From a virus: a stretch of 24,351 bases of DNA. Of this stretch, positions 427 to 15,897 are shown piece after piece; position 1 is the stretch's first letter, and each line of letters starts with the position of its first letter. The stretch spans positions 1-24,351 of the IMG/VR virus record IMGVR_UViG_3300017971_000750; one strand, given 5' to 3'. The position numbers were made by a program, and so were the translations under genes. The notes under the pieces were generated by a model. That model searched no databases. It was not told the origin of the DNA and saw only the letters and a program-made list of their open reading frames with translations.

Positions 427-690
427 TCAGTCCTCCAGCCTTTGGCAGCACCGCTTGAACCTCTTGCCTGATCCGCACGGGCACTTCGAGTTTCTCGTGA
501 CGAAGGCGCGGCCGCTTTTCTCCAGCACCGCACGCGTTCGCCTTGACAGGTTCTTGGGGTCGATCGGTTTAATGATCGTGCCGGCATAGCTGCGGGCCTG
601 CTCCTCAGTTTGGCCGGCGCTCTTCAGCTCCTCGACGAGTCGGCCCATCAGGCTTTCGCAGTTTCCGATCTCTCCAGTTCTCGTGTCCAT
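427..690 (-). CDS. Small SEC-C zinc-motif protein
   Basis: This is an 87-residue protein with an ATG start behind GGAGGAGACT. The last 20 residues hold a SEC-C signature: C70-P-C72-GSGKRFKR-C81-C82, the CxCx8CC zinc ligand pattern found at the SecA C-terminus and in many small proteins. The N-terminal 65 residues are charged and mostly helical, and I recognise no catalytic domain. SEC-C motifs bind zinc and usually mediate protein contacts (SecB or ribosome in SecA), so an adaptor role is possible. No signal peptide is present, so it should be cytoplasmic. It lies 17 bases after the lipoprotein gene and one base before the Acb2-like gene, and its reading frame contains the Acb2 ribosome binding site, so the two are probably translationally coupled. 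Specific function unknown. Confidence 0.85.
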   Translation of the reverse strand: MDTRTGEIGNCESLMGRLVEELKSAGQTEEQARSYAGTIIKPIDPKNLSRRTRAVLEKSGRAFVTRNSKCPCGSGKRFKRCCQRLED

Positions 691-707: not shown

Positions 708-1985
708 TCAGTTGATCGTCTCTGACCAGCGCGACGTGTTGCCGGTCTCGAAGCCGTCAGCGAAGATGAAGTCGGTCGGTGTCAACCATCCATCGACGTC
801 TATCCGTTGCCCCTTTCCGAACCGCAACATGACCAGCTCGGGGCGGCCGATCATGAACATGGCGTCCTGGAAGTTGGCGCAGCCGGGCCCAGGATAGTTC
901 CACGGGTTCGCCGAATCCCAATAGTCAGCCTGCACCTCGACAGGGACGGCCGGGTTGCTGATGTCCCATGTGCTCTCGCTGTTCTTGAATCCCTTGCGGC
1001 CGAAGAAAGCGAGGTCACCTTTCAGGGCTGAGCGGTTGTCGTCGAAACACTGCGGAATCTCTCCGACCTCGACGGGCCACGGGACGTTGCTCAGGCTGTA
1101 GATTTTCCCTTTATTGATCATTTGCTCGCCCCAAAAAGAGAACGACGCGGCCTTGATTCCGTAGCCTGTGAACGGCGTTTGGACGTAGGTCAGGGGGCCG
1201 CTCTCCTGAATCTCGAAGATGTGGACCCAGGTATCCCGGTCGATCAGGTAGGCATATCCGTAGACATTCCGGCCGTTCACAATCTGTGGAATCCTGCCGG
1301 GCACGGTGACGCATTCGACGAACTCGTCCGAGTCCGGTATGCCGATGTCGTCGAATTCATAGATTGCTGATCCCCCGCCGCAGTCGGCACCGAGGCCGGC
1401 CGCCACGAGATACTGCGTCCCGTCCGGTGCTTTGTACGTGAATGCGCCTTCCACACTCTGGCTCACCCCCGGGTAGTATTCGTGATCGTAAAATTCCGGG
1501 TCAATCCCGTACCACAGATCGAAAAGAACCAGCCCCGCTTTGTAGACAGCCGCCCCGAATCGGCACTGATCGCAGACAGCTACATTCATGAGGTCATAGT
1601 CGGAATCGCCGACGTTCGGGACGTTGAAATATGACGAATCGACAAATCTCCAAGGCGTGCTGTCGTAAATGCTGACCTCGTTTCCGCGGGTCACCCACGT
1701 ATATTTGTTGGTGTTCCGAAGCACTTCCTGAGCGCCGAAAACGCGATCGGAACTCGGCTGGGATGCGCAGTTCGGAGAAGAGAACCACTCGACAGCCCCG
1801 CCGTCGTCGGTCTCGGTTGCTGCGGTCGACGCAGTCGGATCGAATTCTGGCGCGATATTTGGCCCTCTCGCCGTTTTTGCGACCGTTACGACCTCCGGTG
1901 CGTCTGCGGGCTGAAGCGAGCTACAGCCCTGCAGGATCGCGACGACAGCCGCAAAAAAGATGATTCCGAACGGGTTCCGCTTCAT
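708..1985 (-). CDS. Secreted lipoprotein with LVIVD/beta-propeller-like repeats
   Basis: The product is 425 residues. It starts MKR, followed by a hydrophobic stretch and a lipobox-like LQGC with Cys21 as the likely lipidation site. Ser22 at position +2 would favour outer-membrane sorting in a Gram-negative cell. The mature part has short repeated beta-rich segments such as VSIYDSTPW, LVLFDLWYG, VHIFEIQ and, near residues 338-352, TWDISNPAVPVEVQ. The last of these is typical of LVIVD repeats in choice-of-anchor-B-like propellers. Many cysteines (CDQC, ADCGGG, ECV, QCFDD, GCAN) suggest disulfides in the periplasm or at the surface. The C-terminus (406-425) carries FADGFETGNTSRWS, a signature I recall from secreted proteins of environmental bacteria. 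Lying after the lysis genes, it is out of place in a phage morphogenesis operon. It could be a receptor-masking or superinfection-exclusion protein, or captured host cargo; both are inference. Confidence 0.8.
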   Translation of the reverse strand: MKRNPFGIIFFAAVVAILQGCSSLQPADAPEVVTVAKTARGPNIAPEFDPTASTAATETDDGGAVEWFSSPNCASQPSSDRVFGAQEVLRNTNKYTWVTRGNEVSIYDSTPWRFVDSSYFNVPNVGDSDYDLMNVAVCDQCRFGAAVYKAGLVLFDLWYGIDPEFYDHEYYPGVSQSVEGAFTYKAPDGTQYLVAAGLGADCGGGSAIYEFDDIGIPDSDEFVECVTVPGRIPQIVNGRNVYGYAYLIDRDTWVHIFEIQESGPLTYVQTPFTGYGIKAASFSFWGEQMINKGKIYSLSNVPWPVEVGEIPQCFDDNRSALKGDLAFFGRKGFKNSESTWDISNPAVPVEVQADYWDSANPWNYPGPGCANFQDAMFMIGRPELVMLRFGKGQRIDVDGWLTPTDFIFADGFETGNTSRWSETIN

Positions 1986-2003: not shown

Positions 2004-2492
2004 TTAGGTTGCCGAAAACATGAGGAGCATCGGATTGACCGCGACTCCTCCAGAAACATGATTCCCGGACCCGTCGAGGGTTGCTTCCCCGTCTAGCAGG
2101 ATCTCGAAGTGTAGGTGGTTGGTCGATCCGGGATGGACCGCGGCCACGTCCTGCAATCGTCCAATGACGTCGCCGGCCTTGACCGATTGTCCCGCATGGA
2201 TCGACGGCTCGACGTAGAGGAGCCGGATCCGTCCGAGCGGGAAGGATAGGACCATCAGTTTGAGGTGAGACCGGGTCGGGTATTTGGTGGGGTTGTAGCA
2301 GATACCGTTCCGCTCGAGTACCGACGTCGCCGGCGCGAAGATCAGGGCGCCAGGCTCCCCGAGGAGGTCAACGCCGCGGTGCGGATAGACGACGCACTCA
2401 TCGTCGACCAGCTTCGTGCGACGGGCACCGAAGGCACCGCTGCCGGCTGAGTCGTTGCGCACTCTCGGGTTCTCGATCGGCCAATAGAACAT
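2004..2492 (-). CDS. M23 family metallopeptidase (putative endolysin or tail-tip peptidase)
   Basis: The product is 162 residues. The M23 zinc motifs are present: H38-x3-D42 (PHRGVDL) and H126-L-H128 (NHLHFEIL), the HxxxD and HxH ligands of LytM-type endopeptidases. The usual fold landmarks lie between them, including SIHAGQSVKAGDVIGRLQD at 97-115 (the glycine-turn strand pair). At the place where bacterial members usually have a Y-x-H catalytic histidine this protein reads YVEP (93-96), a variant I recall from other phage M23 proteins. There is no signal peptide. The start at 2492 follows an in-frame stop in the upstream frame, so no longer start is possible; the ribosome binding site (GAGG, very close to the ATG) is weak. 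It sits directly after a membrane-anchored holin-like protein, so a lysis role is the simplest reading. A tail-tip role in cell entry is the alternative. Confidence 0.85.
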   Translation of the reverse strand: MFYWPIENPRVRNDSAGSGAFGARRTKLVDDECVVYPHRGVDLLGEPGALIFAPATSVLERNGICYNPTKYPTRSHLKLMVLSFPLGRIRLLYVEPSIHAGQSVKAGDVIGRLQDVAAVHPGSTNHLHFEILLDGEATLDGSGNHVSGGVAVNPMLLMFSAT

Positions 2493-2903: not shown

Positions 2904-5900
2904 CTAGGCGATTGAATCGCCGATGGCGATTGCCAAATATGACATACAGAGCCCGTGTAGGTGGGCCGCTGCGTTGAGAGTGTCGTTCGGGTCGTTCCCG
3001 TCGCGAATGATCTCGATGTGCAGGTAGAGGTCGTCGGCGCTGATATTCGCTGCCGGTATCGTGAACAGCGCCGTGCGGAGACCATCGGCCGTTGCTGACG
3101 ACGTCGGGTATTGCTGCAGGGAAACAGTCGGCGTCGTGTTGTCTGTGTCATCGTCGAGAGCAGTGACAAGGACGTTCAATTCCCAATCGCAGTCGAGTGA
3201 TATAGCAGGGCTTGACCACCCGATGATGATCGTCAAGTCTTCGTCTGTGTCGAGGCCTCCAGGGAGGCGCATCGTTGCAACAGCCCTGTTTTCCTGTGAG
3301 TTGTCGAACTCCAAAGCGCCTGAGATTCCATGATTGACGAACGTCGCTGCGCTCTCACCAATAGCCTTTAGACCTTGAGCAGGAATCCACCGAGAGAGGA
3401 CCGGCCGCGCGTCGCCAAAGAAAGAAATCACGCCGTCTTCGTCGATATCGAGATAGTCGCCACCTGCGAGATCTCCGACGATGAGGGAATCGATATCGAT
3501 GTCCCGTTTCGATTCGTTCACCCAACGGCCGTCAGGCTCCTGAGTCTGAACAAGGAGACCGAGTTCGGCCGGGGCACCTTCGAAGTCTTGAGAACCGAGA
3601 ACCGTTCCGCCGATCGAGAGGCCGGTCTCGGTGACTGTCGTCGGCTCGAACTCGGTGACGTGGTCGCCGCGGATAGCGACGATGCGCCAGTCGTAGAGCT
3701 GGGGACTTGAGGTCGGAGCCATCTCAGAGACTTCCTGGAATGGGAAATGAGGAGCGTCGGTTTTCGGTCCGCTCCCGAAGGTGACGCGATCCGCCGCAGC
3801 GCCGATAACTGCATGCGTTATCCAGTCGGAAACGGTTCCGGTCTCCTGCGTCCGATACTGCAATTCGTACCGGTCGAGGCTTCCGGCATCCACGGCCGGC
3901 GCCCATGAAATTGTAAACCGATCGAGGTACGCGGCGTCGTCTTCCGGAGTCCAGTATTTTGCACCGCAGACTATGAGATCGGTCGCCGGTGTGAGCGGGT
4001 CTGCGGGATGACCCTTGATAACCGGTCCGGCAAACGACGCGAGCGGCGAATAGTAGAAGATCGCCGGCATCCTGAAGAGCCGCCACTCGCCGTAGACGCG
4101 GACGATCTTGCTGTACTCGGTCGCGTCGATCCGCGATTCGATTGTCACGTCCATCGGGTCGCCGGAGTAGGTCTTCATCCAGATTGTTTGGACGAAGGAG
4201 TTCGAATTTGCAGGCCTGTCGATGACGGCGTCGTTGCTCTGAATCGAGCCGATCGCCGTGAACTGGACACGGTCCGCGGTGACGTTCCCCTCCGGCGTCG
4301 TGTCAACGTCGGTTGTGATAGAGGGAGGCGTTCCGGTCGTCTGCCAATTTTCAGCCTTGTCCTCATTCGCGAGGCCCGTTTCCTGCCCACGATCCCATCT
4401 CATCGCGACATTCGTCGGGGCGATCGGGGCCGGGTCAATCTCGAAGGTGGTTACCGGATCCGGGAATTCGGTCACCGTGTCGTTGGTGCCGAGATACCAC
4501 ATCCACACAGCCCACGAAGCAAACCCCAGAAGGCCGATTGTTCGGCCGCCAAGGGATCCGACTATGCCGGATGGAACGGGAGAGAATTCGATGTCGTTCT
4601 CACCCTGGGGGACCTCGGCAATTACTGCGCCTGGCGACCCGTTCAGGTTCCATCGCCTGGCCTGCAGGGAGAGAACCAAGGTATCCCAGTCGGGGCCGTC
4701 ATCCCACGTCCAACGCTCGAACAGATCGAGATCGTTCCCGTTCACAAGCGGCGACGGATCCCACTCGACAGCATGGAAGCGCTTCACGGCCCATGTGTTC
4801 GTGCCGGCGCTGAGCTCGAGGCCGATCAGGTGGTATGTGTCCCCGCCCAGATACCACGGAATGTTGTAGGCCCACCGGAGGAGGGTGCCGGCTCCGACTG
4901 CCCCGGGCGTGATCTCTCGTCGGAATCGCTCGGTGAATGGGCCTGTCAGAGAATTCCCGGTCTTGTAGACGACGGCGATCGACGCGTCTCCGTCCGTCCC
5001 TGATTCCAGAGCAATACACAGAGTCGTCTTGATATATCTCCGCAGGCCAGGGTCTGTTGCCGCTAGGTGATGCAACCATTCGTTTGAAGGGGCGATCCCT
5101 GTCGGGACGGTTGGCGTCAATTTGGTCCATTTGTTAATGGCGTCATAAACCACCGTCGGGTCAGGGAGGTCAAAGCCATTCCAGTGATTCTGTACCGTGA
5201 GCTCATTCGGGTCCTCAAACTCTGATCTCTCCGCCCAGTTTCCAAGCTCACCGAGTTCCCGAGTCACATTGGTCGGAGGATCTGGCGGCAGCGTCGAGTA
5301 TCCGCCGTCGATCGAAATCGGGGTGTCATCGGTGGCGATCGCGTCGGAGTCGGTGTTCGGGTCGTACTCAGTCAACTCGATCAGAATCCACCCGTCGCCC
5401 ATCTCCTTGAGGCGCTCGACGCGCGCCGGCTGATTCTCGACTCCCTCCGGCGTGTTGATTGTGATGATGTGGCCCGGGAGAACCTCGGCGATCTTCGATT
5501 CCGGAACATAGCCCATCCACTGGAACCGCTCGAGGTGGTGGTGGTTGTATTTCTTCGTCCCCCACCTGGTCGCGGCGCTCCGCGTAATGCCTCCGCTCAG
5601 GGTCGCCTTGGCCTCGACCATGTTCGAGCCGGAGACGCCGGCCGGATCTTCGATGGGGACCGACGCCGGCTTCCAGTCGAGGCTGTTGGTGTAGCTGACT
5701 CGAATCGAATTTGGGATAGTCTTCTTCGAAATTTCGCGCCACTTCGGCGGGCTCTTCCAGTCGCCGGCGTTGATGACCTCCGGCCGGATTGTGGCCGGGT
5801 TCTCCATGCTCTTGATTTCGTATTGGCCTCTGACGAAATGGAGTTCCATAAAGGCGTGATCGCCAACGATTGCGAGGGCTTGCGCTGGCCGTTGCTCGGT

Positions 5901-6674
5901 CAACCGGGCGTTGAATGAGTATCGCCTTGTGAGGTCGCCCATGACCTCGTCACAGTGGTCGGCCGCCTCCCGCCACGTACTCCCGACGCCGGTCGGGATC
6001 TTCGTAGGGTCGAAACCGAGGCCGATCTCCTCATCGGTCAGGATGAAGTATTTGACGAGTGGAATGTTGCCAGTTGATACCTTGAGCCCAGTCCGGAAGT
6101 CTGTAATCAGCATTCCCTTGAGGAGAGCCGTCGCGGCGAACGACGTCGGAGCCCCTGACTTCGTGGTGTCGATGATGATGACCGAATAGGCGTAACCGGG
6201 ATATGTCTCGACAAAACCTTTTGCGCCGAGGGCCCGCTCAAGATCGACTGAGATGGGCTGCGTGTCGGACCCGTAGAAGTGCTCGACAGAGACGACCCAG
6301 GTCGCTTCTGAGGCGTCCTCATCGTTGATCTGAAGTCCGTCGATGCCATCGGGTGGCAGTTCGCCCTCAGACCACACGACGGCGACGTAGACGTCCTCAC
6401 GCTGGAGAACCTGCCGACGCTCGACAGCGGCAACGAATCCCGGGTATCGACGCTGTGCGCCAAACACACCGCCCACGGTTTGCTGGAGGATCGTCGACGA
6501 AACTGAGAAGTTGCGCTCGAGGGACCGGGCCGGGTATGACGGGCTGATAGGATGGCCGCCACGGGTTCCCCAGTATGGGAGGTTCCAAGGCTGATCCGGG
6601 TCGAGGTCGTCATTGAGCCCGAGTTCATCCTTTGGCGGAGCGTCGCTTGGGTCGCTGGTCGGGTAGCCGCTCAT
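2904..6674 (-). CDS. Tail tip / host specificity protein, lambda gpJ-like
   Basis: This very large protein (1256 residues from this start) is the probable central tip and receptor-binding protein. Residues from about 40 to 470 resemble the hub region of gpJ and GTA gp15 proteins, including WREAADHCDEVMGDLTRRYSF then AQALAIVGDHAFMELHF (about 228-278) and IPNSIRVSYTN (about 317-328), the typical gpJ strand. A region with no clear match follows. Residues 770-910 look like a CBM4/9-type beta-sandwich (AENWQTTG, ADRVQF, WMKTYSG, GEWRLFRMP). Residues 923-1011 look like fibronectin type III (DRFTISWAPA, DRYELQYRTQ). A C-terminal beta domain ending LCMSYLAIAIGDSIA probably contacts the receptor. Start choice: ATG at 6674 overlaps the upstream stop as TGATG, favouring coupling. 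An ATG at 6689 would add five residues but has a poorly spaced ribosome binding site. Confidence 0.8.
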   Translation of the reverse strand: MSGYPTSDPSDAPPKDELGLNDDLDPDQPWNLPYWGTRGGHPISPSYPARSLERNFSVSSTILQQTVGGVFGAQRRYPGFVAAVERRQVLQREDVYVAVVWSEGELPPDGIDGLQINDEDASEATWVVSVEHFYGSDTQPISVDLERALGAKGFVETYPGYAYSVIIIDTTKSGAPTSFAATALLKGMLITDFRTGLKVSTGNIPLVKYFILTDEEIGLGFDPTKIPTGVGSTWREAADHCDEVMGDLTRRYSFNARLTEQRPAQALAIVGDHAFMELHFVRGQYEIKSMENPATIRPEVINAGDWKSPPKWREISKKTIPNSIRVSYTNSLDWKPASVPIEDPAGVSGSNMVEAKATLSGGITRSAATRWGTKKYNHHHLERFQWMGYVPESKIAEVLPGHIITINTPEGVENQPARVERLKEMGDGWILIELTEYDPNTDSDAIATDDTPISIDGGYSTLPPDPPTNVTRELGELGNWAERSEFEDPNELTVQNHWNGFDLPDPTVVYDAINKWTKLTPTVPTGIAPSNEWLHHLAATDPGLRRYIKTTLCIALESGTDGDASIAVVYKTGNSLTGPFTERFRREITPGAVGAGTLLRWAYNIPWYLGGDTYHLIGLELSAGTNTWAVKRFHAVEWDPSPLVNGNDLDLFERWTWDDGPDWDTLVLSLQARRWNLNGSPGAVIAEVPQGENDIEFSPVPSGIVGSLGGRTIGLLGFASWAVWMWYLGTNDTVTEFPDPVTTFEIDPAPIAPTNVAMRWDRGQETGLANEDKAENWQTTGTPPSITTDVDTTPEGNVTADRVQFTAIGSIQSNDAVIDRPANSNSFVQTIWMKTYSGDPMDVTIESRIDATEYSKIVRVYGEWRLFRMPAIFYYSPLASFAGPVIKGHPADPLTPATDLIVCGAKYWTPEDDAAYLDRFTISWAPAVDAGSLDRYELQYRTQETGTVSDWITHAVIGAAADRVTFGSGPKTDAPHFPFQEVSEMAPTSSPQLYDWRIVAIRGDHVTEFEPTTVTETGLSIGGTVLGSQDFEGAPAELGLLVQTQEPDGRWVNESKRDIDIDSLIVGDLAGGDYLDIDEDGVISFFGDARPVLSRWIPAQGLKAIGESAATFVNHGISGALEFDNSQENRAVATMRLPGGLDTDEDLTIIIGWSSPAISLDCDWELNVLVTALDDDTDNTTPTVSLQQYPTSSATADGLRTALFTIPAANISADDLYLHIEIIRDGNDPNDTLNAAAHLHGLCMSYLAIAIGDSIA

Positions 6675-7744
6675 CAGTCGAATTCCCATACTTCCATGAG
6701 GTCAAATTTCACAATCAAGTTACCTCTCGGATCGTGGGTGCGCGTGACCTTGTCTGTCATGGTCATGTACGGTTTCAGGATCCTCGCCTCGAGAGATGCG
6801 TACAGGTTCTCGCCGTCGTTTGCAGTGAAAAAGAACGTCGCGACCATCGGTGCGCAGGATGGAAGCCACCATTCTGGACGCTCGTATGGAGTGATCCCGA
6901 GGCAATCGAACCAGGAATTCGTGTCTGTCGAACCGTCACGGCGCGCGATGAGCTGAGCCTCGACGGCGCCAGCCGGCGCTGTGCCCTGGACGTTGATGGG
7001 TGTGAAATCGCCAGTTGCGGCCGTGATCGTCCCGACTGCATTCGGCAGAATCGGAAGGCCTCCAGAGTCCAGCCATTGCAGCTCAGCGACGATATCACCC
7101 GAACCTGAGATGTAACCCCACGCAACGCCGTAGAACGGATGTCCCTCGTTCACTGGAACCGGCGACGTTATGACGCCCGGATCGTCAACGACTCCAGTCG
7201 GATCTGCTCGAAACGAGTTCCCGCCGAAGAAGTCGAATCGCGGATCGAAGACAACAGAGCCGGCCCCGGAGTTCGAGAAGAATGAAACACCACCGGCCCC
7301 GGAAATCGCCGCGGCTTCGTCATCGTCGAGGAGGTTCGCCCTTTCGTAGACGATGGCATTCTTTGCGCCTCCGAAATCGCCACGCCGGAGCGTCGGAACT
7401 GATCCGGTGTAGAGGGCTGGAATTATGAATGAACGGCTGACGCCGTCGCCTTGGCCAATGAACAAATCGCGGTGGTATTCAGTGATCGGCTGGGGCATCC
7501 AAATCTGAGAACCTCGGCCCTTGATACGCTTGATGACGTCTTTGATTGCTGGCAGCTTCGGTTCGTCCACTGCAACGGCGAAGAGTGGGTCCATGCTGTC
7601 TTTGCCGAATTCCCAATAGCGCCTGACGCGGATGTATCCGCCGAGAGTGTCAGTCACGTCGTTCCGGTAGTTCTGATCGAGGTCGATCGTATCCATTGGC
7701 TTCGCTTCTTCGTGGAACCAACAAATGTGTCTTCTCTGCGCCAT
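6674..7744 (-). CDS. Distal tail / tip-associated protein with inserted beta-sandwich-like domain
   Basis: The product is 356 residues and starts at an ATG behind GGGGGA. The N-terminal part (about 1-160) and the C-terminal part (about 290-356, FFFTANDGENLYASLEARILKPYMTMTDKVTRTHDPRG) look like the two halves of a tail-tip ring protein. Between them, about 165-290 forms a Gly/Asp-rich beta segment (FDPRFDFFGGNSFRADP, ELQWLDSGGLPI, GAVEAQLIARRDGSTDTNSWFD), reminiscent of carbohydrate-binding insertions in evolved distal tail proteins. The position between the gpL-like and gpJ-like genes supports a tip location. The gene overlaps the gpJ-like gene at its stop and follows the gpL-like gene by 8 bases. 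I do not recognise a specific family signature, so the distal-tail call rests on position and domain layout. Confidence 0.6.
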   Translation of the reverse strand: MAQRRHICWFHEEAKPMDTIDLDQNYRNDVTDTLGGYIRVRRYWEFGKDSMDPLFAVAVDEPKLPAIKDVIKRIKGRGSQIWMPQPITEYHRDLFIGQGDGVSRSFIIPALYTGSVPTLRRGDFGGAKNAIVYERANLLDDDEAAAISGAGGVSFFSNSGAGSVVFDPRFDFFGGNSFRADPTGVVDDPGVITSPVPVNEGHPFYGVAWGYISGSGDIVAELQWLDSGGLPILPNAVGTITAATGDFTPINVQGTAPAGAVEAQLIARRDGSTDTNSWFDCLGITPYERPEWWLPSCAPMVATFFFTANDGENLYASLEARILKPYMTMTDKVTRTHDPRGNLIVKFDLMEVWEFD

Positions 7745-7752
7745 CTGTCCCC

Positions 7753-8538
7753 CTACGATGCGTTGCCCGGGATTGGCGGGGCGTCAATTGGACCATCATA
7801 AACGCCGTCTGGACCAACACCGAAGCCGAACTCGTGGTCATAGTCGGAATCGCCTGCTGGCGGCCCCGGGATGTATTCGGATGTACTGCTCGAGCCCGGG
7901 ATCTGCTGGGAACCGGTATTCGAGAGCTTGATCACTGCGCCGGCCTCGAGAGCAAACCGCCAGCCACCGAAACGCGACCCGTTCCCGCGGGCGTCACATG
8001 TTGCAAAGGTTCGGTCGCAATTCAGCTCCGGGCCCGGGTACGTGCAACGCCGGCCGCCGTAGATATGCCTGCAGGACTTCTCCCCCTGGCGCCACAGGGA
8101 CCGCCGTTGAAGCCCGGAGAGACCTGAGAGGAGGATGGTAGCTGAATGTGATGTCCCGCTAACTTCTGCGATTTCAGCACTGATAGGCTCGTATACAGGC
8201 TCCCAAGGGTCGTTCCACTCCGCCTTGACCAGGATGCCAACGGTGAGAATTTTCCCGGTGAGATATTCCGAATAGGAGAGGTTTGAAATCAGGCTGTCAC
8301 GGTTGTCGATGACGATCTTCGCGCCAGCCTGGTCGAGCCGGCCCCACGCGATGTCATTCACCGTAAATCGACGCTGAAAATAGGCATGACCTCCCTCGAT
8401 TTCCCTCAGTGGACCATCACAGAAACGCTGGACTGTAGACGTCTCGATCGTGAGGAGATGCCGGTAACACGGGTAGCGCTCGAGCTGGAATACCTGCAGC
8501 GTCGACGGCGGTATGTTCTTCGAAAGTGACTGACTCAT
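7753..8538 (-). CDS. Minor tail protein, gpL / DUF2163-BR0599-like, four-cysteine cluster
   Basis: The product is 261 residues. The ATG overlaps the tape measure stop as ATGA. The C-terminal half carries the phage BR0599/DUF2163 signature: SCRHIYGGRRCTYPG, then LNCDRTFATCDARGN, then RFGGW. The four cysteines C156, C165, C174 and C181 are in the spacing I associate with the C-terminal domain of lambda gpL, which holds an iron-sulfur cluster. The N-terminal half (VFQLERYPCYRHLLTIET, TVNDIAWGRLDQAGAKIVIDNRD) fits the beta-rich hub-associated domain of the same family. GTA gp13 and lambda gpL homologues lie between the tape measure and tip genes, as here. The last 60 residues are Gly/Pro/Asp rich and less conserved. 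Role: links the tail end to the tip hub. Family assignment is confident; cluster occupancy is inference. Confidence 0.85.
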   Translation of the reverse strand: MSQSLSKNIPPSTLQVFQLERYPCYRHLLTIETSTVQRFCDGPLREIEGGHAYFQRRFTVNDIAWGRLDQAGAKIVIDNRDSLISNLSYSEYLTGKILTVGILVKAEWNDPWEPVYEPISAEIAEVSGTSHSATILLSGLSGLQRRSLWRQGEKSCRHIYGGRRCTYPGPELNCDRTFATCDARGNGSRFGGWRFALEAGAVIKLSNTGSQQIPGSSSTSEYIPGPPAGDSDYDHEFGFGVGPDGVYDGPIDAPPIPGNAS

Positions 8539-11500
8539 GAGGTCTGACCTCTGTAGCTGAACTGTTGGGCGACGACGGTTTTGACTGTGCGCGTCAGGGC
8601 TGCGAGGTCCGGACTCTGATTGATCTCGACTTTGGGCGGCTTCATGTTGGCGATTGCCTTCACAAGCTCTTCGATTGCATCCACGATTCTATCGTTCGAG
8701 TCAATCAACTCATCGACTTTCGGCGGAGGCATCCCGCTGGGGCCTGGGGCGTCCGGATCTTCACCACCTGGGTCAAAGTCTCCGGTGTCTCCGGCTCCTC
8801 GATCGCTCTCAACCTGCCATGCGTCCGGCTCGGTGAGCAAATCGTCCCAGCGCTCAAGCCAATTAATAACCCCCTCGGCTCCAGAACCCTGGCTGGTTGG
8901 CGGAGGTGGCTCCTTCCCTGGAATGTTGAATTCGTCGTAATCGGTGATGTCACCGATGTCGCCGGCATCACCGAAGCCCGTGTCTGTCTCGCCGCCTTGT
9001 CCTTGAGCGCCAAGGAGGTTTTGGATTCGCTCGACCTGGTCATTGAATCCGGTAAGCGCCAGGTTGAGCCGCTGCAGAATGTCGATTTGCTCTTCGTTCA
9101 GCGCGGCAATTTCGTCCACCTGATCCTGAATGGCTGCCTGCGCATTCGTATTCAGCGTGTCCAAGAGAGCAATGAGTAGCGCTCGTCCAGTGTCGTCGAG
9201 ATCAAATCCCAGGCCGGTAAGAAGCCCGAAGATGTCATCGCCGGCGCCGGTCTCTACGCCCTGCTCCTGAAGAATCGCGCCACTGCCTCCAAAGGCATAC
9301 GTTACGAGGCTGTCAGCGAATGCTGCCAGGGCATCATTCAGCCGCTCGAGAATGCCGATCTGCTGCTCGTTGAGGTCCTGAATCTGCGTGATGTTGTCGT
9401 CTAGCGCGCCCTGCGCTTCGACGTCGAGGGCCTCAAGGAGGGAGATCAGGAATTCACGGCCTGTACCTTCGAGGTCGAGCCCGAGATCTGCGAACTCACC
9501 ACCCCCGAACAGCTCGCCAAGGATGGCCGCAACGTCGGGCATGTTCTCGACGAGATCGAGGTCGATGTTCTCCCCGAAGAGATCCTCGAGCATGGCAATG
9601 AAGCCCTGAGCGTCTCCGGTGAGCTGAGCAATCGTCGCCGCGTCAAGGCCGCCCATTCCAAGCTGGTCGAAGATGTTTTCGAGGCGGTCGGCGACGAATT
9701 CGCCCTGTTCCTGCTCGGTCATGCCGCCCATTCGGAGCCGGTCAATCTGGTCCTGAATGCTGCGGGAGATGTCGTCGGAGAGGCGCAGGATCTCGCCGAG
9801 GTACTGTATTTCAGCCTGCCGTGCCTGATCGACCAGGCCCATGATTGCAAGAGCGTCTGTCGGGTCGTCGAAGTCTGTGAGGAGGAGAGAGGCCTCGTCC
9901 AACATTCCGGTGACCGAATTCACGAAAGCCGTTCTCGGGTCGATGGTCGCTTCCTGGATCATCGCTTCCCAGTCGAGACCGGCGAGCGCGTTGGCGTTGG
10001 CTTCGAACGCGGCGACGTAGTCTTCAAATCCGCTCAGGTCAGCTTCCTCGATTCCACCGAGGATCTCCCCAAGAGTGAGGTCGATGTCCTCACCGAAGAG
10101 GGTCTGAAGCATTGAGATGTAATTCTGCGCATCTCCGGTGAGTTGCGCGATGGTATTCGGATCCAGGCCTCCGACGAGCAGATCGTCAAAGATGTCGCCG
10201 ATGTTCCCGAAAATGGCTCGAGTCTGTTCAGCGAGATTCATCCCGCCGAGTTCGAGGGCCTCGATCTGCTGACCAATGCTCCGCGCGATGTCCTCGGAGA
10301 GCTGAAGGATTTGAGTCAGGTATTGCAGTTCGGCTTGCCTGGCCTGGTCGATGAGTTCCTGGATGACGAGGGCCTGGTCGGCCTGCTCCGTAAGGCTCAA
10401 GTGTTCGAACCCTGCGAACTGGAGTTCGGCCTGGTCGAGGATGGTCCGAATAGCCTCACCGAATGCCTCGCGCGGGTCGGCGCTGGCGACGCGGATCATC
10501 TCGTTCCAGTCGAGACCCTCGAGCAGTTTCGCGTTATTGACGATCGCGCGAATATAGGTCTCGAGAGCGGTGAACCTGTCGTCGCCGGTCATCCGACTGA
10601 GTTCGCCGAAGAGTGCGTCGATAACTTCCTGCTGCACATTCAGGTCGGCGAAGCCTGCCGAGAGCGCTTCCTTGAATGTGGCCTCCATGTGCTCCGGGAT
10701 GAGGCCACCAACGAGCCATTGAATAACCTCGTCGATGGTCCCTTCGAATTCCTCACCTCCCGGGAACATCATTTCTATCTTCTCGACAAAATCGAACAAT
10801 GCAGGATCCTCGAAGACTCGCAGGAGGTCGAGGTATCCGACTTTGATGTCGTCGAACGCCTGTTTCAGTTGGCGCTCGATTCGTTCGAGTTCGAGCTCTG
10901 CGACATCGCCCTGATGGCGTGGCCTTACGCTTGTGACCGCACCGATTCTGCTGACTGTCGTCGTCGGGATCTCTTCGTCACCGGAGCCGAAGTACCCAGC
11001 GGCGCCACCGAGGACGCCGCCGATAATTGCACCGATCCACCCGCCTGCCTGACCTCCAACTTGGGCACCGCCGATAATTCCCTGAATGGTGGCCGTTGTT
11101 TGGTCCATCATCTGGGTAGCCTGGTAGACCATCGAAAGCCCACCGACGACGCCGGCAAGTCCAAGGTCTTGCATCCCGGCTATCAGGTTTCCGCCGAGCG
11201 CTCCGAAGTCGCCAGTCTTGAATGCTTCGCCGAGGGCCCCTCCGATCACGTCCGTGATCATCGCGCCCCAGTCATCCATCAGGCCCTCAAGGTAGTCGCC
11301 GAAGTTGTCGAACTCGCTGAGGCCGTCCATGATCGCGAAGCCGAGCGACTCCTTGAAATAGTCGGATATCTCGTTGACCTGTTTGCGCCAGCCGGCGAAG
11401 GAAGGCGGTTCGATCTCCTGAGCGATCGCCAGGAAGAGGTCTTCGGCTGCTTCCTCAGACAATCCCATCGCGTCAGTCATGTCGATCACGGCGCCAGTCA

Positions 11501-13565
11501 CCGCATCGACGTTCATTTTGTCGAGGTCGTCGAGCTGGTCGTTCAGAGACCGCATGTAAATGGTGGTGTCGTCGAGCTCCACGCCAACGAGGCCGAGTTC
11601 GTTCGCCACGATCGCGAGATAGTCGGCCATGTTCTTCTCGACCTTGAGAAGTTCCCTCTCAGCATCGGCGAGCCTGTCGGCCTTCGTCTTCGCTTCTTCG
11701 CGTGCGTCGGCTGATTTTTTGAGGGCCGTAACTTCCCTCATCAGCTCGTCATTGGCTTCTTTTCTGGCCTTCGTCTCTTTCTCAGCGGCTTCCTTCGCAT
11801 CCTTCGATGCGTCGGCTTCCTTCTTCTTTGCCTTGGCGAGTTTCTCAGCCTCTTCGCGCCGCTTTTTTTCGATCTCAGCGGCCTTCTTCATTACCTTTTC
11901 GAAGTCTTCGGCGAGCTCCTTGTTTTTCTCCTGCTCGAGTCGCGCTTCGCGCATGGCCGTGCCGAGTCCGAATTCGGTTTCGGTGAGATCCTCGGCAGCT
12001 CGGAGATTCTCAAGGTACGCGTCGGCGTTCTGTGAGAGGGCTGTTGCACTCTCGCCAAAGTGCTCGGAAGCGGCGTCGACAGATCCATACAGCTCCTTGA
12101 GAGCCGCCTGCATCGCCGAGATACTCTCCGCCTGCTCGTTGAACGCCTGCCCTGAACCCTCCGCGCCTGCTCTGAGAAATTCCTGGTTGACGTTATCGAG
12201 CATCTCCGCGAAGGCGAGCCCGAGAGCTGTCCCGGCTCCGATTGCGAGGTTGAACTTTGCGACGCCTGACATTGCCGTCGCGGCACTCGTCCCGGTAGCT
12301 GTGATCGCTGTTGAGATGGCCTTGTATGCCGCGAGCACCTTCGGGGCCGCCAATACCAACGCGCCCCAAATCGCGGCCCATTCGCCGGCCGTGATGATCA
12401 GGTCTTTCGCCTCCGGGTCGAGGTTGCGAATCACGCTGATGATGTCGGTCATTCCGCCGATGAGGCCTTGCACCTCGTCCGAAGTCAGCTCTCCGAACTC
12501 GATCCCGAGTTTCTTGAACTCAGCGGTCAGGGCCTCGGTTTGACCCGTGACAGTGGCGCTCATCCGCTCGAAGTTGCGCTCGACTTTGCCAGCGCTGTTC
12601 TCGATCTCGTTGAGCGTCTCGAGGTACTTCGCTCCGCCCTCCTCTGAAGCGAGCTTCATGGCGCCATTCATTGCGCGCATGTTCGGGAATAGCGCAGCGG
12701 TTGCAGCGGCGTTCCCTTCCGTAGCTTTGGCAGCCTCACCCATCCACTTTCCAAAGCCTTGCGCCTGCAGAGCTGTCAGGCTCAGGTCAACCCCGAGTTC
12801 GGCCATCGCCTCGGACTCTTCCTTCGTCGGCTTCAGAGCCACGCGAAGAATGTTCCGAACGGCGGTCATCGACTCCTCGACGCTCAGGCCGTTGAGGGTC
12901 AGCGTCGCCAGGGTGGCCATGAGCTCCTGGTAACTCACGTCCGCGGCTGAGGTGATGGAGACGCCCTTTCCGATGTTGTCGGCGAGTTCGGCAAACGTCA
13001 GTTTTCCGAGATCGACCGTCTTCGTCATCGCGTCGAGAACTTCGGTGATCTCCGACGCTTCGAGTCCATAGGCGTTCAGAATGGACGTTCCGGCGTCCAC
13101 CGTCTGCGTCATGTCTGAGAGGTTGCCCTTGGCGGCCTTCGCGCTAGCGACAATCACCCCGAATGCGTCTTCTGTACCAGTGACACCTGCGGAAATCGTC
13201 TGATAGAGGCCGGCCATGATGTCATCGGCTTCGCCGAGGGTCGGCGGAAGCTGCATGATACTGGCGGCGAGCTGGGCCATGCTCGCGTCAGTGGCCTCGG
13301 TGATGTTCTGAACGTTGACGGTCTGTTTTTCGAAGGATCCATAAGCGACCGTCGCGCCGGTGATGGCGCCGGCAACCACGCCCATGGTTTTTTTCGCGGT
13401 CCCGCCAAGTTCCTCGAAGTCCTTGGAGAGACCGTCAATGGAATTTCCAGCGTCCTTGGCTGAGTCGTCCAGCCCTAGAATTGCGTCCTGGACGCCTTTG
13501 ATCTCGGCGACAGCCGCTTTCAGCCTCGATTTGATTTCGAGGGTGAGCACTGATTTCGAGGCCAT
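8535..13565 (-). CDS. Tail tape measure protein
   Basis: With 1676 residues this is the longest gene in the window and sets tail length. The ATG lies behind GGAGGTGGCTTC. The N-terminal 350 residues match TP901-type tape measures (SAKAAKGNLSDMTQTVDAGTS, ITSAADVSYQELMATLATLT, LFPNMRAMNGAM). A hydrophobic, Ala-rich region lies near 385-450. A long Lys/Glu/Ala coiled coil spans about 528-650, and a Gly-rich membrane-active-looking stretch about 790-860 (GGAQVGGQAGGWIGAIIGGVLGGAAGYFG). From about 1000 to 1510 there are two pairs of internal duplications, listed separately. A proline and glycine-rich linker precedes a helical C-terminus. Using the usual 0.15 nm per residue, the tail would be about 250 nm, a long siphophage tail. 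It is preceded by the frameshifted chaperone gene, as in lambda, and followed by the gpL-like gene with a 4-base overlap. Confidence 0.95.
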   Translation of the reverse strand: MASKSVLTLEIKSRLKAAVAEIKGVQDAILGLDDSAKDAGNSIDGLSKDFEELGGTAKKTMGVVAGAITGATVAYGSFEKQTVNVQNITEATDASMAQLAASIMQLPPTLGEADDIMAGLYQTISAGVTGTEDAFGVIVASAKAAKGNLSDMTQTVDAGTSILNAYGLEASEITEVLDAMTKTVDLGKLTFAELADNIGKGVSITSAADVSYQELMATLATLTLNGLSVEESMTAVRNILRVALKPTKEESEAMAELGVDLSLTALQAQGFGKWMGEAAKATEGNAAATAALFPNMRAMNGAMKLASEEGGAKYLETLNEIENSAGKVERNFERMSATVTGQTEALTAEFKKLGIEFGELTSDEVQGLIGGMTDIISVIRNLDPEAKDLIITAGEWAAIWGALVLAAPKVLAAYKAISTAITATGTSAATAMSGVAKFNLAIGAGTALGLAFAEMLDNVNQEFLRAGAEGSGQAFNEQAESISAMQAALKELYGSVDAASEHFGESATALSQNADAYLENLRAAEDLTETEFGLGTAMREARLEQEKNKELAEDFEKVMKKAAEIEKKRREEAEKLAKAKKKEADASKDAKEAAEKETKARKEANDELMREVTALKKSADAREEAKTKADRLADAERELLKVEKNMADYLAIVANELGLVGVELDDTTIYMRSLNDQLDDLDKMNVDAVTGAVIDMTDAMGLSEEAAEDLFLAIAQEIEPPSFAGWRKQVNEISDYFKESLGFAIMDGLSEFDNFGDYLEGLMDDWGAMITDVIGGALGEAFKTGDFGALGGNLIAGMQDLGLAGVVGGLSMVYQATQMMDQTTATIQGIIGGAQVGGQAGGWIGAIIGGVLGGAAGYFGSGDEEIPTTTVSRIGAVTSVRPRHQGDVAELELERIERQLKQAFDDIKVGYLDLLRVFEDPALFDFVEKIEMMFPGGEEFEGTIDEVIQWLVGGLIPEHMEATFKEALSAGFADLNVQQEVIDALFGELSRMTGDDRFTALETYIRAIVNNAKLLEGLDWNEMIRVASADPREAFGEAIRTILDQAELQFAGFEHLSLTEQADQALVIQELIDQARQAELQYLTQILQLSEDIARSIGQQIEALELGGMNLAEQTRAIFGNIGDIFDDLLVGGLDPNTIAQLTGDAQNYISMLQTLFGEDIDLTLGEILGGIEEADLSGFEDYVAAFEANANALAGLDWEAMIQEATIDPRTAFVNSVTGMLDEASLLLTDFDDPTDALAIMGLVDQARQAEIQYLGEILRLSDDISRSIQDQIDRLRMGGMTEQEQGEFVADRLENIFDQLGMGGLDAATIAQLTGDAQGFIAMLEDLFGENIDLDLVENMPDVAAILGELFGGGEFADLGLDLEGTGREFLISLLEALDVEAQGALDDNITQIQDLNEQQIGILERLNDALAAFADSLVTYAFGGSGAILQEQGVETGAGDDIFGLLTGLGFDLDDTGRALLIALLDTLNTNAQAAIQDQVDEIAALNEEQIDILQRLNLALTGFNDQVERIQNLLGAQGQGGETDTGFGDAGDIGDITDYDEFNIPGKEPPPPTSQGSGAEGVINWLERWDDLLTEPDAWQVESDRGAGDTGDFDPGGEDPDAPGPSGMPPPKVDELIDSNDRIVDAIEELVKAIANMKPPKVEINQSPDLAALTRTVKTVVAQQFSYRGQTS
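9038..9212 (-). repeat. Tape measure internal duplication B, copy 2
   Basis: Second copy of the 58-residue unit (LGFDLDDTGRALLIALLDTL, then LNEEQIDILQRLNLALTGFND). About half of its residues are identical to copy 1 by eye and the helical heptad pattern is preserved. Confidence 0.85.
9311..9485 (-). repeat. Tape measure internal duplication B, copy 1
   Basis: A unit of about 58 residues (LGLDLEGTGREFLISLLEAL, then LNEQQIGILERLNDALAAFAD) that recurs 273 bases (91 residues) further along the transcript at about 9038-9212. Confidence 0.85.
9561..10019 (-). repeat. Tape measure internal duplication A, copy 2
   Basis: This stretch of the tape measure gene repeats the segment at about 10080-10556 with a period of 519 bases (173 residues) from the aligned DQARQAE site. 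Shared landmarks in order are GLDWxxMI, DPRxAF, DQARQAExQYL, SRSI/ARSI, LGGM/MGGM, then GGLDxxTIAQLTGDAQ and LFGExIDL. Divergence at the residue level is clear, so it is an old in-frame duplication. Confidence 0.85.
10080..10556 (-). repeat. Tape measure internal duplication A, copy 1
   Basis: First copy (in transcription order) of the duplicated unit of about 155-160 residues in the tape measure protein. It contains GLDWNEMI, DPREAF, DQARQAELQYL, ARSIGQQIEAL and GGLDPNTIAQLTGDAQ. It is six residues longer than copy 2 in the segment just before DQARQAE. Confidence 0.85.
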
Positions 13566-13581: not shown

Positions 13582-14495
13582 CTATCTGCGTGGCCTCCGT
13601 GCTCCTTTGGTCCTTCTCCGTTTTCGGTCTCGTTCGGCCTTTTGTCGTTGGCGTTCGGCTCGCTCGCCGTGGATCTTCTTCAGCTCAAGCATACAGGTGC
13701 TGATCTGCTTTTGAGTTTCAGGGGTGAGCTGATCTTCGGTCGCATGCCCGAACCGTGTGAGCTTCGAATGCACGTTCGTCCAATGGACTCGAGAGGGACC
13801 GTTCACGCCGTCCACCCAGCAATCCTGGACGATCAGGAAGTATCGCCAACCGTCATCGATCTGTGGTGATATCTCAGGGTGAGGGCCCTTCGGCTTGCGC
13901 CTCTCTGCGATCGCGTCAGCGTCAGCTATTTTGCCTTGGGCGCGGAGCTTTTCTTCGAGGATGCTCGCCTTCGCTTCGGCTTCGCCTTCGCCTGCCTGGT
14001 CGAAGTAGTAGCGGACGAGCTTTCGGAGTTTTTTTCATTCTCCACATTGATCGCGGTGCAGAGGGCGTAGCACTTGCCCTTGAATGTCCCGAAGAGCTTG
14101 ACAGCCCCTGTCGCGAGCATCACGCGGCAGTCTTCAGCGGTGCCTTCCGTCTCATCGTCAGGGATGACGTACTCGAACTCATCACCATCCCAGCGGAAGA
14201 GATCCTTCCACCCCCTGTCCTTGTCGATGAGGAGCACTGGCAGACAGCGGTTCTGGGCGCGGAGTTTCGATTGATCCTGCTCGAAAACGTTGGTGCTGAC
14301 GCCGAGTTCCTCGAGTTCGTCAAGGACGTTTTGGTCGAAGGCATACCCGTAGAAAGTCGCCATTTTCGGGCCGTCCTTGGTGGGCACGTCGATCTCGACA
14401 GGAAACGGCCCGGACCGCCCAACGGACGGCCCGAGCCCAACGACGAGTTTCGGGATTTTCAGAGTTTCCTCGGTGGATTCGGTTTCCTTTTTCAC
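13582..14495 (-). CDS. Frameshifted tail assembly chaperone (lambda G-T-like fusion)
   Basis: This is the predicted 304-residue product of a -1 ribosomal frameshift at the A AAA AAC heptamer (14034-14028). Residues 1-156 are the zero-frame chaperone. The ribosome then continues in the -1 frame from 14028 to the TAG at 13584-13582 for 148 residues with no stop. The shifted part begins LRKLVRYYFDQAGEGEAEAKA, contains ILEEKLRAQGKIADADAIAER and a Trp/Cys-containing core (DDGWRYFLIVQDCWVDGVNG), and ends in a very basic tail (RDRKRRRTKGARRPRR). In lambda and most siphophages the gene just before the tape measure is decoded this way, and both G and G-T proteins coat the tape measure during tail assembly. 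The shifted frame ends 17 bases before the tape measure ATG. The frame and slip site are visible; frameshifting itself is inferred. Confidence 0.85.
13926..14495 (-). CDS. Tail assembly chaperone, zero-frame product (lambda G-like)
   Basis: The product is 189 residues. The globular part (about 10-153) is acidic and mixed alpha/beta, for example KLVVGLGPSVGRSG, VLDELEELGVSTNVF and CRVMLATGAVKLFGTFKGK. After the slip codons at 155-156 the zero frame turns into a low-complexity basic tail (SSSATTSTRQAKAKPKRRRASS) ending at a TAG. The sharp change of character after the heptamer, contrasted with the more protein-like -1 frame, supports regulated decoding into two products. The gene lies between the tail tube and tape measure genes, the standard place. 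I recognise it by position and slip site more than by sequence family. Confidence 0.85.
   Translation of the reverse strand: MKKETESTEETLKIPKLVVGLGPSVGRSGPFPVEIDVPTKDGPKMATFYGYAFDQNVLDELEELGVSTNVFEQDQSKLRAQNRCLPVLLIDKDRGWKDLFRWDGDEFEYVIPDDETEGTAEDCRVMLATGAVKLFGTFKGKCYALCTAINVENEKNSESSSATTSTRQAKAKPKRRRASSKKSSAPKAK
14028..14034 (-). promoter_or_regulatory. Programmed -1 ribosomal frameshift slip site A AAA AAC
   Basis: On the minus strand the codons GAA AAA AAC supply X XXY YYZ in the correct phase (A AAA AAC), one of the most efficient bacterial -1 slip heptamers. A GGAG sequence at 14043-14040, five bases upstream, could act as a stimulatory Shine-Dalgarno-like element. The -1 frame is open for 148 codons afterwards. 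No clear stem-loop was found at the ideal distance downstream. Confidence 0.85.
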
Positions 14496-14525: not shown

Positions 14526-15494
14526 TTACGGGGTGGTGTTGACGAGTTCCACGGTCAGGCAGTCAGCATACGCATTCCAGTCGAACGTGATCAACTGGCC
14601 ACCGGAGCTGTCAACGGCCTCGCCGGTTTGGGCAAGCTCCGCGTTTTCGATGAGGAACGAGAGGTTCTCAGTGTTCGGGTCGGCACCCGGGGTCACGATC
14701 TCGAACGACTGGACGGTCTTGTTCTCGGCCGCCGTGATGAGGGCGTGAGTCGGATCTCCGAAAAACGCCGCGATGGAACCGCTCAGCATTGGCTTCATGC
14801 GGATCAGGTTCGAGCGAACCCCACCACAGCCGACCGGATGTCGGTCGGTCTGGAGACGCCAGTCAAGGGTTCCGCTGAAGCTCTCGACGTTGCAATCCTG
14901 GGATCCGTTGACCTTGAGGATTTGCGTCAGTGAATCGATCGGAAGAGAGGTGAACTCGGTGGGTGCAGGAACGATGAGAGTCGGGGACCACGGGTCCATG
15001 TTCAGGAACTCGCACCCGAGATTGAAGATCACGGCCGATGTGAGCGCGCACTCGAAGCCGAAAGTGTTGACCCTGCTGCCCCACATGAGACGGCTTTGAA
15101 GCGTGGTCGCGTCGAGTTGCTGTTTCTCGATCGCGAACCCAGGAACCTCACCAAAGACGCTCCCAAGGTTGAAGGTGTGCGTGTAGGACCCAACGACCGG
15201 GGTGTCGCCGGCAGTGGTCTGAATACCGATACCGAAGCGGAGCGCCCACACCCCTGAGTCGAAGTGGAACGGGATATTGACCGTACCGTTCGGCGCGACG
15301 ACGGTGCCCATGGGCTTCGTCGGATGGGAACCGCCGTCGATCTCCTCGAAGTCGGTGAATCCGTCGTTCGGAGAGGCATCCTCGTCGGTGAAGGCAAGGA
15401 CGTAGCCGGGGCCAGCTACCGGTTTGGTTTGGATGGAAAGAGGCTGCTCGATGAAAACGAGCTTGACGTACCTTCCTTCATATTCATTCGGCAT
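14526..15494 (-). CDS. Major tail tube protein
   Basis: The product is 322 residues from the ATG at 15494. The sequence is beta-rich with two similar-sized halves, as in siphophage tube proteins of the Phage_tube_2 type: VPGFAIEKQQLDATTLQSRL in the middle and LSFLIENAELAQTGEAVDSS near the end, and an N-terminal part (GYVLAFTDEDASPNDGFTDF) that reads like the first tube repeat. It precedes the chaperone and tape measure genes, the standard tail order. Start choice: an ATG at 15506 is in frame, but GGAGG lies between the two ATGs with a 5-base gap to the second. The same leader precedes the upstream gene, so 15494 is preferred. The start overlaps the upstream gene by 11 bases. Confidence 0.85.
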   Translation of the reverse strand: MPNEYEGRYVKLVFIEQPLSIQTKPVAGPGYVLAFTDEDASPNDGFTDFEEIDGGSHPTKPMGTVVAPNGTVNIPFHFDSGVWALRFGIGIQTTAGDTPVVGSYTHTFNLGSVFGEVPGFAIEKQQLDATTLQSRLMWGSRVNTFGFECALTSAVIFNLGCEFLNMDPWSPTLIVPAPTEFTSLPIDSLTQILKVNGSQDCNVESFSGTLDWRLQTDRHPVGCGGVRSNLIRMKPMLSGSIAAFFGDPTHALITAAENKTVQSFEIVTPGADPNTENLSFLIENAELAQTGEAVDSSGGQLITFDWNAYADCLTVELVNTTP

Positions 15495-15897
15495 TGGTGC
15501 CTCCATTTGCCGCGGTTGCGGCCTTGGCGTTCTTCACCGCGTCGGTCTCGGCCTTGCGCTTCGCGGCGACCTTGGCATCGTCGCGCTTTCTGGCCTTGTC
15601 CTCTTCGGCCGCCCGTTTCGGATTCAGCTTACGGAAGAGGGCTTCGCCGGCCTTGGCAGCGGCCTCGTTGGCTGCCTTTTCCTTCTTCATCGAGGTTTCC
15701 TCGGATCCCTCGAAAAAGCCCTTCTCGCCATCGATTTTCTTCTCCGGGTTGCCGAGGAGAAGTTCCGCGAGTTCGGCCGGCACCTTGGTGCTACGGCGCT
15801 TGTTGAAAATGTACGGAACGCGGCCGAGTCGCTTGACGATCTGCGGAGCTTGCCCGCGCTCGGTCGCGGCGTAAAAAACAAAGACTTCCTTCGGCAT
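15484..15897 (-). CDS. Small lysine/alanine-rich protein before the tail tube gene, unknown
   Basis: The product is 137 residues, with ATG behind GGAGGCACCA. Residues 1-65 may fold (MPKEVFVFYAATERG, VKRLGRVPYIFNKRRST, AELAELLLGNPEKK). The remainder is a long charged helix rich in Lys, Ala and Glu, likely coiled coil or disordered. I do not recognise a family. Its position between the gp37-like gene and the tail tube gene suggests a head-tail joining or tail-assembly role. It shares with the 73-residue protein at 17399-17620 a short folded start followed by a Lys-rich tail, but I see no convincing homology. The end of its reading frame carries the ribosome binding site and start of the tube gene. 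Confidence 0.8.
   Translation of the reverse strand: MPKEVFVFYAATERGQAPQIVKRLGRVPYIFNKRRSTKVPAELAELLLGNPEKKIDGEKGFFEGSEETSMKKEKAANEAAAKAGEALFRKLNPKRAAEEDKARKRDDAKVAAKRKAETDAVKNAKAATAANGGTNAE
15487..15504 (-). promoter_or_regulatory. Ribosome binding site leader of tail tube gene (repeat copy)
   Basis: The minus strand reads GGAGGCACCAATGCCGAA here, an exact 18-base match to the leader and start of the previous gene at 15890-15907. It has GGAGG, a 5-base gap and ATG CCG AA, and it decides the tube protein start at 15494 rather than 15506. Confidence 0.8.

Follow-up and report, generated by a model that had tools for sequence, protein, structure and literature searches.

A tail assembly chaperone gene very probably expressed by −1 ribosomal frameshifting in a divergent phage with Mu-like head genes

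Between its tail tube and tape measure genes, the phage studied here carries a short reading frame that overlaps a second one shifted by a single base, an arrangement that raises the question of whether the two frames are independent genes or the two parts of one. The DNA analysed, hereafter termed the window, is a stretch of 24,351 bases corresponding to positions 1 to 24,351 of virus record IMGVR_UViG_3300017971_000750. The locus is very probably a tail assembly chaperone gene that makes two proteins by −1 ribosomal frameshifting, in the manner of gpG and gpGT of phage lambda. The sequence layout, the phase, the frame switch at the slip site, the gene neighbourhood, and the likeness to other phages were read directly; the coordinates are collected in the table.

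Table. Features of the chaperone locus and the flanking genes, with positions in the window
Feature	Position	Strand	Remarks
Tail tube protein gene, upstream	14526..15506	-	PF18906, E 6.6e-15; phrog_290, E 8.4e-19
Zero-frame ORF, putative gpG-like short chaperone	13926..14495	-	189 aa; GTG start with AAGGAG upstream; between the tube and tape measure genes
-1-frame TGA stop	14035..14037	-	abuts the heptamer on its upstream side
Slippery heptamer A AAA AAC	14028..14034	-	in zero-frame phase
Possible downstream stem-loop	13962..14020	-	7 bases past the heptamer; MFE -24.3 kcal/mol, z -1.69
-1 extension, putatively gpT-like	13582..14028	-	148 codons plus TAG; codon-usage switch; best DUF1799-type profile match among window ORFs
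Tape measure protein gene, downstream	8535..13565	-	1676 aa; TIGR01760, E 4.6e-29; tblastn to annotated tape measure proteins

The slippery heptamer falls inside the overlap of the zero-frame and −1 open reading frames. Codons 153–156 of the zero-frame ORF read AAT GAA AAA AAC, giving the heptamer the X XXY YYZ phase, and the GAA AAA AAC at 14036–14028 that an earlier, sequence-only reading of this DNA had described as correctly phased is indeed in frame with the GTG at 14495. Following a slip of −1, the message continues as CTC CGA AAG and remains open for 148 sense codons up to a TAG that ends at 13582, with the product LRKLVRYYFDQAG...RRPRR. Translation thereby bears out the claim of a −1 frame open over this length to a stop near the tape measure ATG at 13565; the intervening bases number 16, not the 17 that had been given. 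In the zero frame, 33 codons rich in Lys, Arg, and Ser follow the heptamer, in agreement with the description of this stretch as low-complexity and basic. ATG, GTG, and TTG are absent from the first 71 codons of the −1 frame, the first such codon being the GTG at 13815. Together with the TGA that abuts the heptamer, this lack of a start codon makes slipping the natural way into the −1 frame.

The heptamer alone is not rare, as AAAAAAC is found three times in the window where 1.6 occurrences are expected, and an open −1 frame of 148 codons has, taken alone, a probability of ~0.007–0.026. Only 0.017 in-phase occurrences of AAAAAAC or AAAAAAG are expected per 189-codon ORF. A codon-usage model trained on the other genes of the window, from which the single best change point was taken, places the switch from the zero to the −1 frame at 14022, with a 2-log-unit interval (14036–14018) that overlaps the heptamer. 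The coding signal of the −1 frame under this model is weaker than that of the other window genes and fails over the last ~30 codons, which are low-complexity and basic. The conjunction of the heptamer phase, the change point, the abutting TGA, and the missing start codons is far beyond chance.

The surrounding genes are those of a phage with Mu-like head genes (Portal_Mu, Mu F, Mu I protease, and Gp36), the capsid protein of which matches those of B3-, RcapMu- and phiSHP3-like phages at 22–28%. Because the tail cluster of the window showed no sheath gene, we infer a long non-contractile tail, which would here be combined with a Mu-type head. Large proteins are encoded downstream of the tape measure gene at 2904–6689 and 6674–7744 (minus strand). 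A 1261-residue protein downstream of the tape measure gene has neither a Pfam match nor a tblastn match among phages, which suggests that tail tip and chaperone are equally divergent.

Relationship to known chaperones was sought with profiles of DUF1799-type chaperones built from 11 members, with separate profiles for the N and C domains. The −1 part aligns to the C-domain profile from its first residue with an E value of 0.0066 (0.061 without Lsp-JY19, the most distant member) and outscores 5000 of 5000 shuffles, or 4998 of 5000 when Lsp-JY19 is left out. The match of the N part is weak: it outscores 4990–4993 of 5000 shuffles, leaving 7–10 as good, and the zero-frame ORF ranks second or first among window ORFs with the N profile. 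The chaperones of phiSHP3 and StM171, which are of another family, have profile scores at or below zero. Two motifs are common to the window and the 11-member family, a KL immediately following the slip site, and FLxVQxxWxxG. These profile matches, weak as they are, make it probable that both halves are homologous to the DUF1799-type chaperone family.

The same layout is seen in other phages. The gene that separates tube from tape measure has an in-phase A AAA AAC in six (Lsp-JY19, S-CBS1, S-LBS1, S-CBS3, phiES15, and Envy) and a G GGA AAC at the corresponding spot in five (RcapMu, the IMG/VR relative L012, ThpS-P1, RC1, and PS-1), while two phages of another chaperone family, phiSHP3 and StM171, have T TTT TTC; the heptamer itself was the search target and several of the phages came via a DUF1799-type query, so these numbers are not a frequency. 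The same scan found nothing comparable to these heptamers in POA1180 or Komp_PAO1_1. The distance from the end of the −1 frame to the next annotated gene is at most 50 bases in nearly all of these phages and usually at most 10; in Envy, the −1 frame ends 385 bases before the annotated start of the tape measure gene, and in PS-1 no nearby tape measure gene is annotated. In most compared members of the related family the zero frame has its stop at the slip site itself, and conservation of this site is seen between distant phages only. The N part of the chaperone of Synechococcus phage S-LBS1 (positions 830–1210 of record L021) carries in its public record the evidently wrong annotation of an ABC-type siderophore transporter ATPase.

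Two of these phages are among the known systems closest to the window. Similar to the window, RcapMu has a Mu-like head and a PF18906 tube protein, followed by a chaperone and then the tape measure gene, and its −1 part opens with the KL motif and contains FxxxQxxW. A potential −1 frameshift was annotated at this place by the submitters of RcapMu, as was a frameshift in phiSHP3. The differences are that the RcapMu heptamer is G GGA AAC and that no zero-frame codons follow it, compared with 33 in the window; the window halves also fall short of the curated thresholds of the RcapMu family (phrog_569 and phrog_680/DUF1799). The Leptolyngbya phage Lsp-JY19, a relative by its Mu-like capsid, has the identical A AAA AAC; its −1 frame continues for 149 codons, against 148 in the window, and stops 8 bases short of the tape measure gene. 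Its zero-frame tail, in contrast, is 5 codons long, its −1 part is annotated as a separate hypothetical gene, and its chaperone proteins are not alignable with those of the window at the level of pairwise BLAST. The same heptamer has been described elsewhere: AAAAAAC is the reported slippery sequence of the pre-tape-measure chaperones gp93/gp94 of phiCbK-type Caulobacter phages (PMC3556154), it was proposed as the slip site in Loki (PMC5313236), and A AAA AAC is given for the haloarchaeal virus HCTV-2 (PMC5009743). The phiCbK-type phages have large prolate heads and are likened to the window by the site alone.

Could the −1 part instead be a separate 77-residue gene that starts at GTG 13815 and needs no frameshift? 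An ORF of this length is listed by a mechanical ORF caller, as the sequence-only reading had foreseen, and an AGGA lies ~7 bases upstream of the GTG. The −1 coding signal, however, starts at the heptamer, 71 codons ahead of this GTG, and since no start codon precedes it, ordinary initiation does not reach these codons. The GTG also lies inside FLIVQDCW-V, which aligns with the conserved FLxVQxxW of the other chaperones, so that a product started there would lose the conserved stretch; a separate gene is highly unlikely.

Two other explanations turn on the run of seven adenines. Were the true run A8, the locus would be a single continuous ORF that an assembly homopolymer error, or a real one-base deletion, had split; A7 is a typical spot for such an error, and one extra A joins both frames. 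The break would then coincide with a perfect in-phase slippery heptamer, and many phages keep the same arrangement in this gene, including some with the non-homopolymer G GGA AAC, which renders this explanation extremely unlikely. An added A would yield the same frame if RNA polymerase, rather than the ribosome, slipped on this homopolymer, but transcriptional slippage is hardly credible as the source of the fusion: the phase is exactly that required for ribosomal slippage, the corresponding site in relatives is G GGA AAC, and seven A are short for efficient transcriptional slippage in bacteria. Read as one recoded chaperone gene, the locus corrects an automatic annotation that would show two unrelated small genes.

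The position, phase, frame architecture, codon-usage switch, and other phages all support the chaperone frameshift of the lambda G/G-T type that had been proposed, and from them we infer that slippage occurs and is ribosomal, as well as its rate and the protein functions. Most ribosomes would stay in the zero frame and produce the 189-residue, gpG-like short form. On A AAA AAC, where Lys-tRNA occupies the P site and Asn-tRNA the A site, a minority would slip back one base by tandem slippage of both tRNAs from AAA AAC to AAA AAA, and would continue in the −1 frame to give a gpGT-like fusion of ~304 residues with the junction ...NEKN-LRKL.... By analogy to lambda, the N-terminal part common to both forms would serve as the binding partner of the tape measure protein, tail tube subunits would be brought in by the −1 extension, and both chaperone forms would leave before tail completion. 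It is very unlikely that the two basic stretches, the 33 zero-frame codons rich in Lys, Arg, and Ser past the slip site and the terminus of the −1 part, are functional, such that the choice of frame swaps a basic tail for another domain.

The lambda heptamer is G GGA AAG, compared with A AAA AAC in the window, and no detectable sequence similarity was found between the two chaperones. As reviewed for lambda, the tape measure protein is the binding partner of gpG and of the G portion of gpGT, and the tube protein that of T; gpG and gpGT are made at a ratio of ~30:1 (PMC5009743). Similar to the window, the lambda gene lies between the tail tube/terminator cluster and the tape measure gene and has a −1 slip heptamer late in its first ORF; the extension is made by a minority of ribosomes, as proposed for the window from its sequence alone (PMC5009743, citing Xu, Hendrix and Duda 2004). 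In Escherichia coli, A AAA AAC slips far less readily than A AAA AAG (PMC5009743), which counts against the site yet also fits a low ratio of long to short product. The downstream stem-loop is possible and not clearly better than shuffles, 9 of 200 of which fold as well, and a longer stretch of 99 nt downstream of the heptamer has a folding z of +0.35. An upstream Shine-Dalgarno stimulator was rejected, as the GGAG is only 4 bases before the heptamer and the spacing range used was 6–17 nt (PMC4066793).

No close relatives of the window were found in viral contigs, genomes, phages, or plasmids. Neither chaperone half has a tblastn match among 50,697 phage records, and the tube and tip proteins likewise found no relatives in tblastn against phages. 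No curated family is above threshold for either half: the −1 part was found by neither the PF08809 nor the phrog_680 search, the N part has no library match to phrog_569, and the C-terminal region of phrog_8233 (tail assembly chaperone) matches the −1 half below threshold, at E 0.011. A match of PF16006 (NUSAP) to the −1 part at E 0.057 was dismissed, as it concerns the basic low-complexity helix. AlphaFold models made without an alignment have mean pLDDT values of 35 and 56, too poor for a fold search. The window would add a very divergent Mu-head phage that keeps the frameshift though its proteins have lost nearly all detectable similarity; the known mechanism of chaperone frameshifting is unchanged by this example.

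The capsid protein alignment was too diverged for scanning. A scan with the RcapMu chaperone recovered L012, and one with TerL recovered only contigs L002 and L003. The IMG/VR contig L002 (17892–18556) has a terminase 39% identical to that of the window and a different tail module, which suggests that terminase and tail have had separate histories in these phages.

Beyond the tail tip genes, positions 2004–2492 (minus strand) encode a Peptidase M23 domain protein (PF01551), possibly a lysis or tail peptidase. The adjoining gene at 708–1985 (minus strand) encodes a predicted lipoprotein of 425 residues with an ILQGCSS signal and no Pfam match, possibly a phage-encoded surface lipoprotein. A small protein encoded at 427–690 (minus strand) ends in a SEC-C zinc motif (PF02810, E 2.1e-07).
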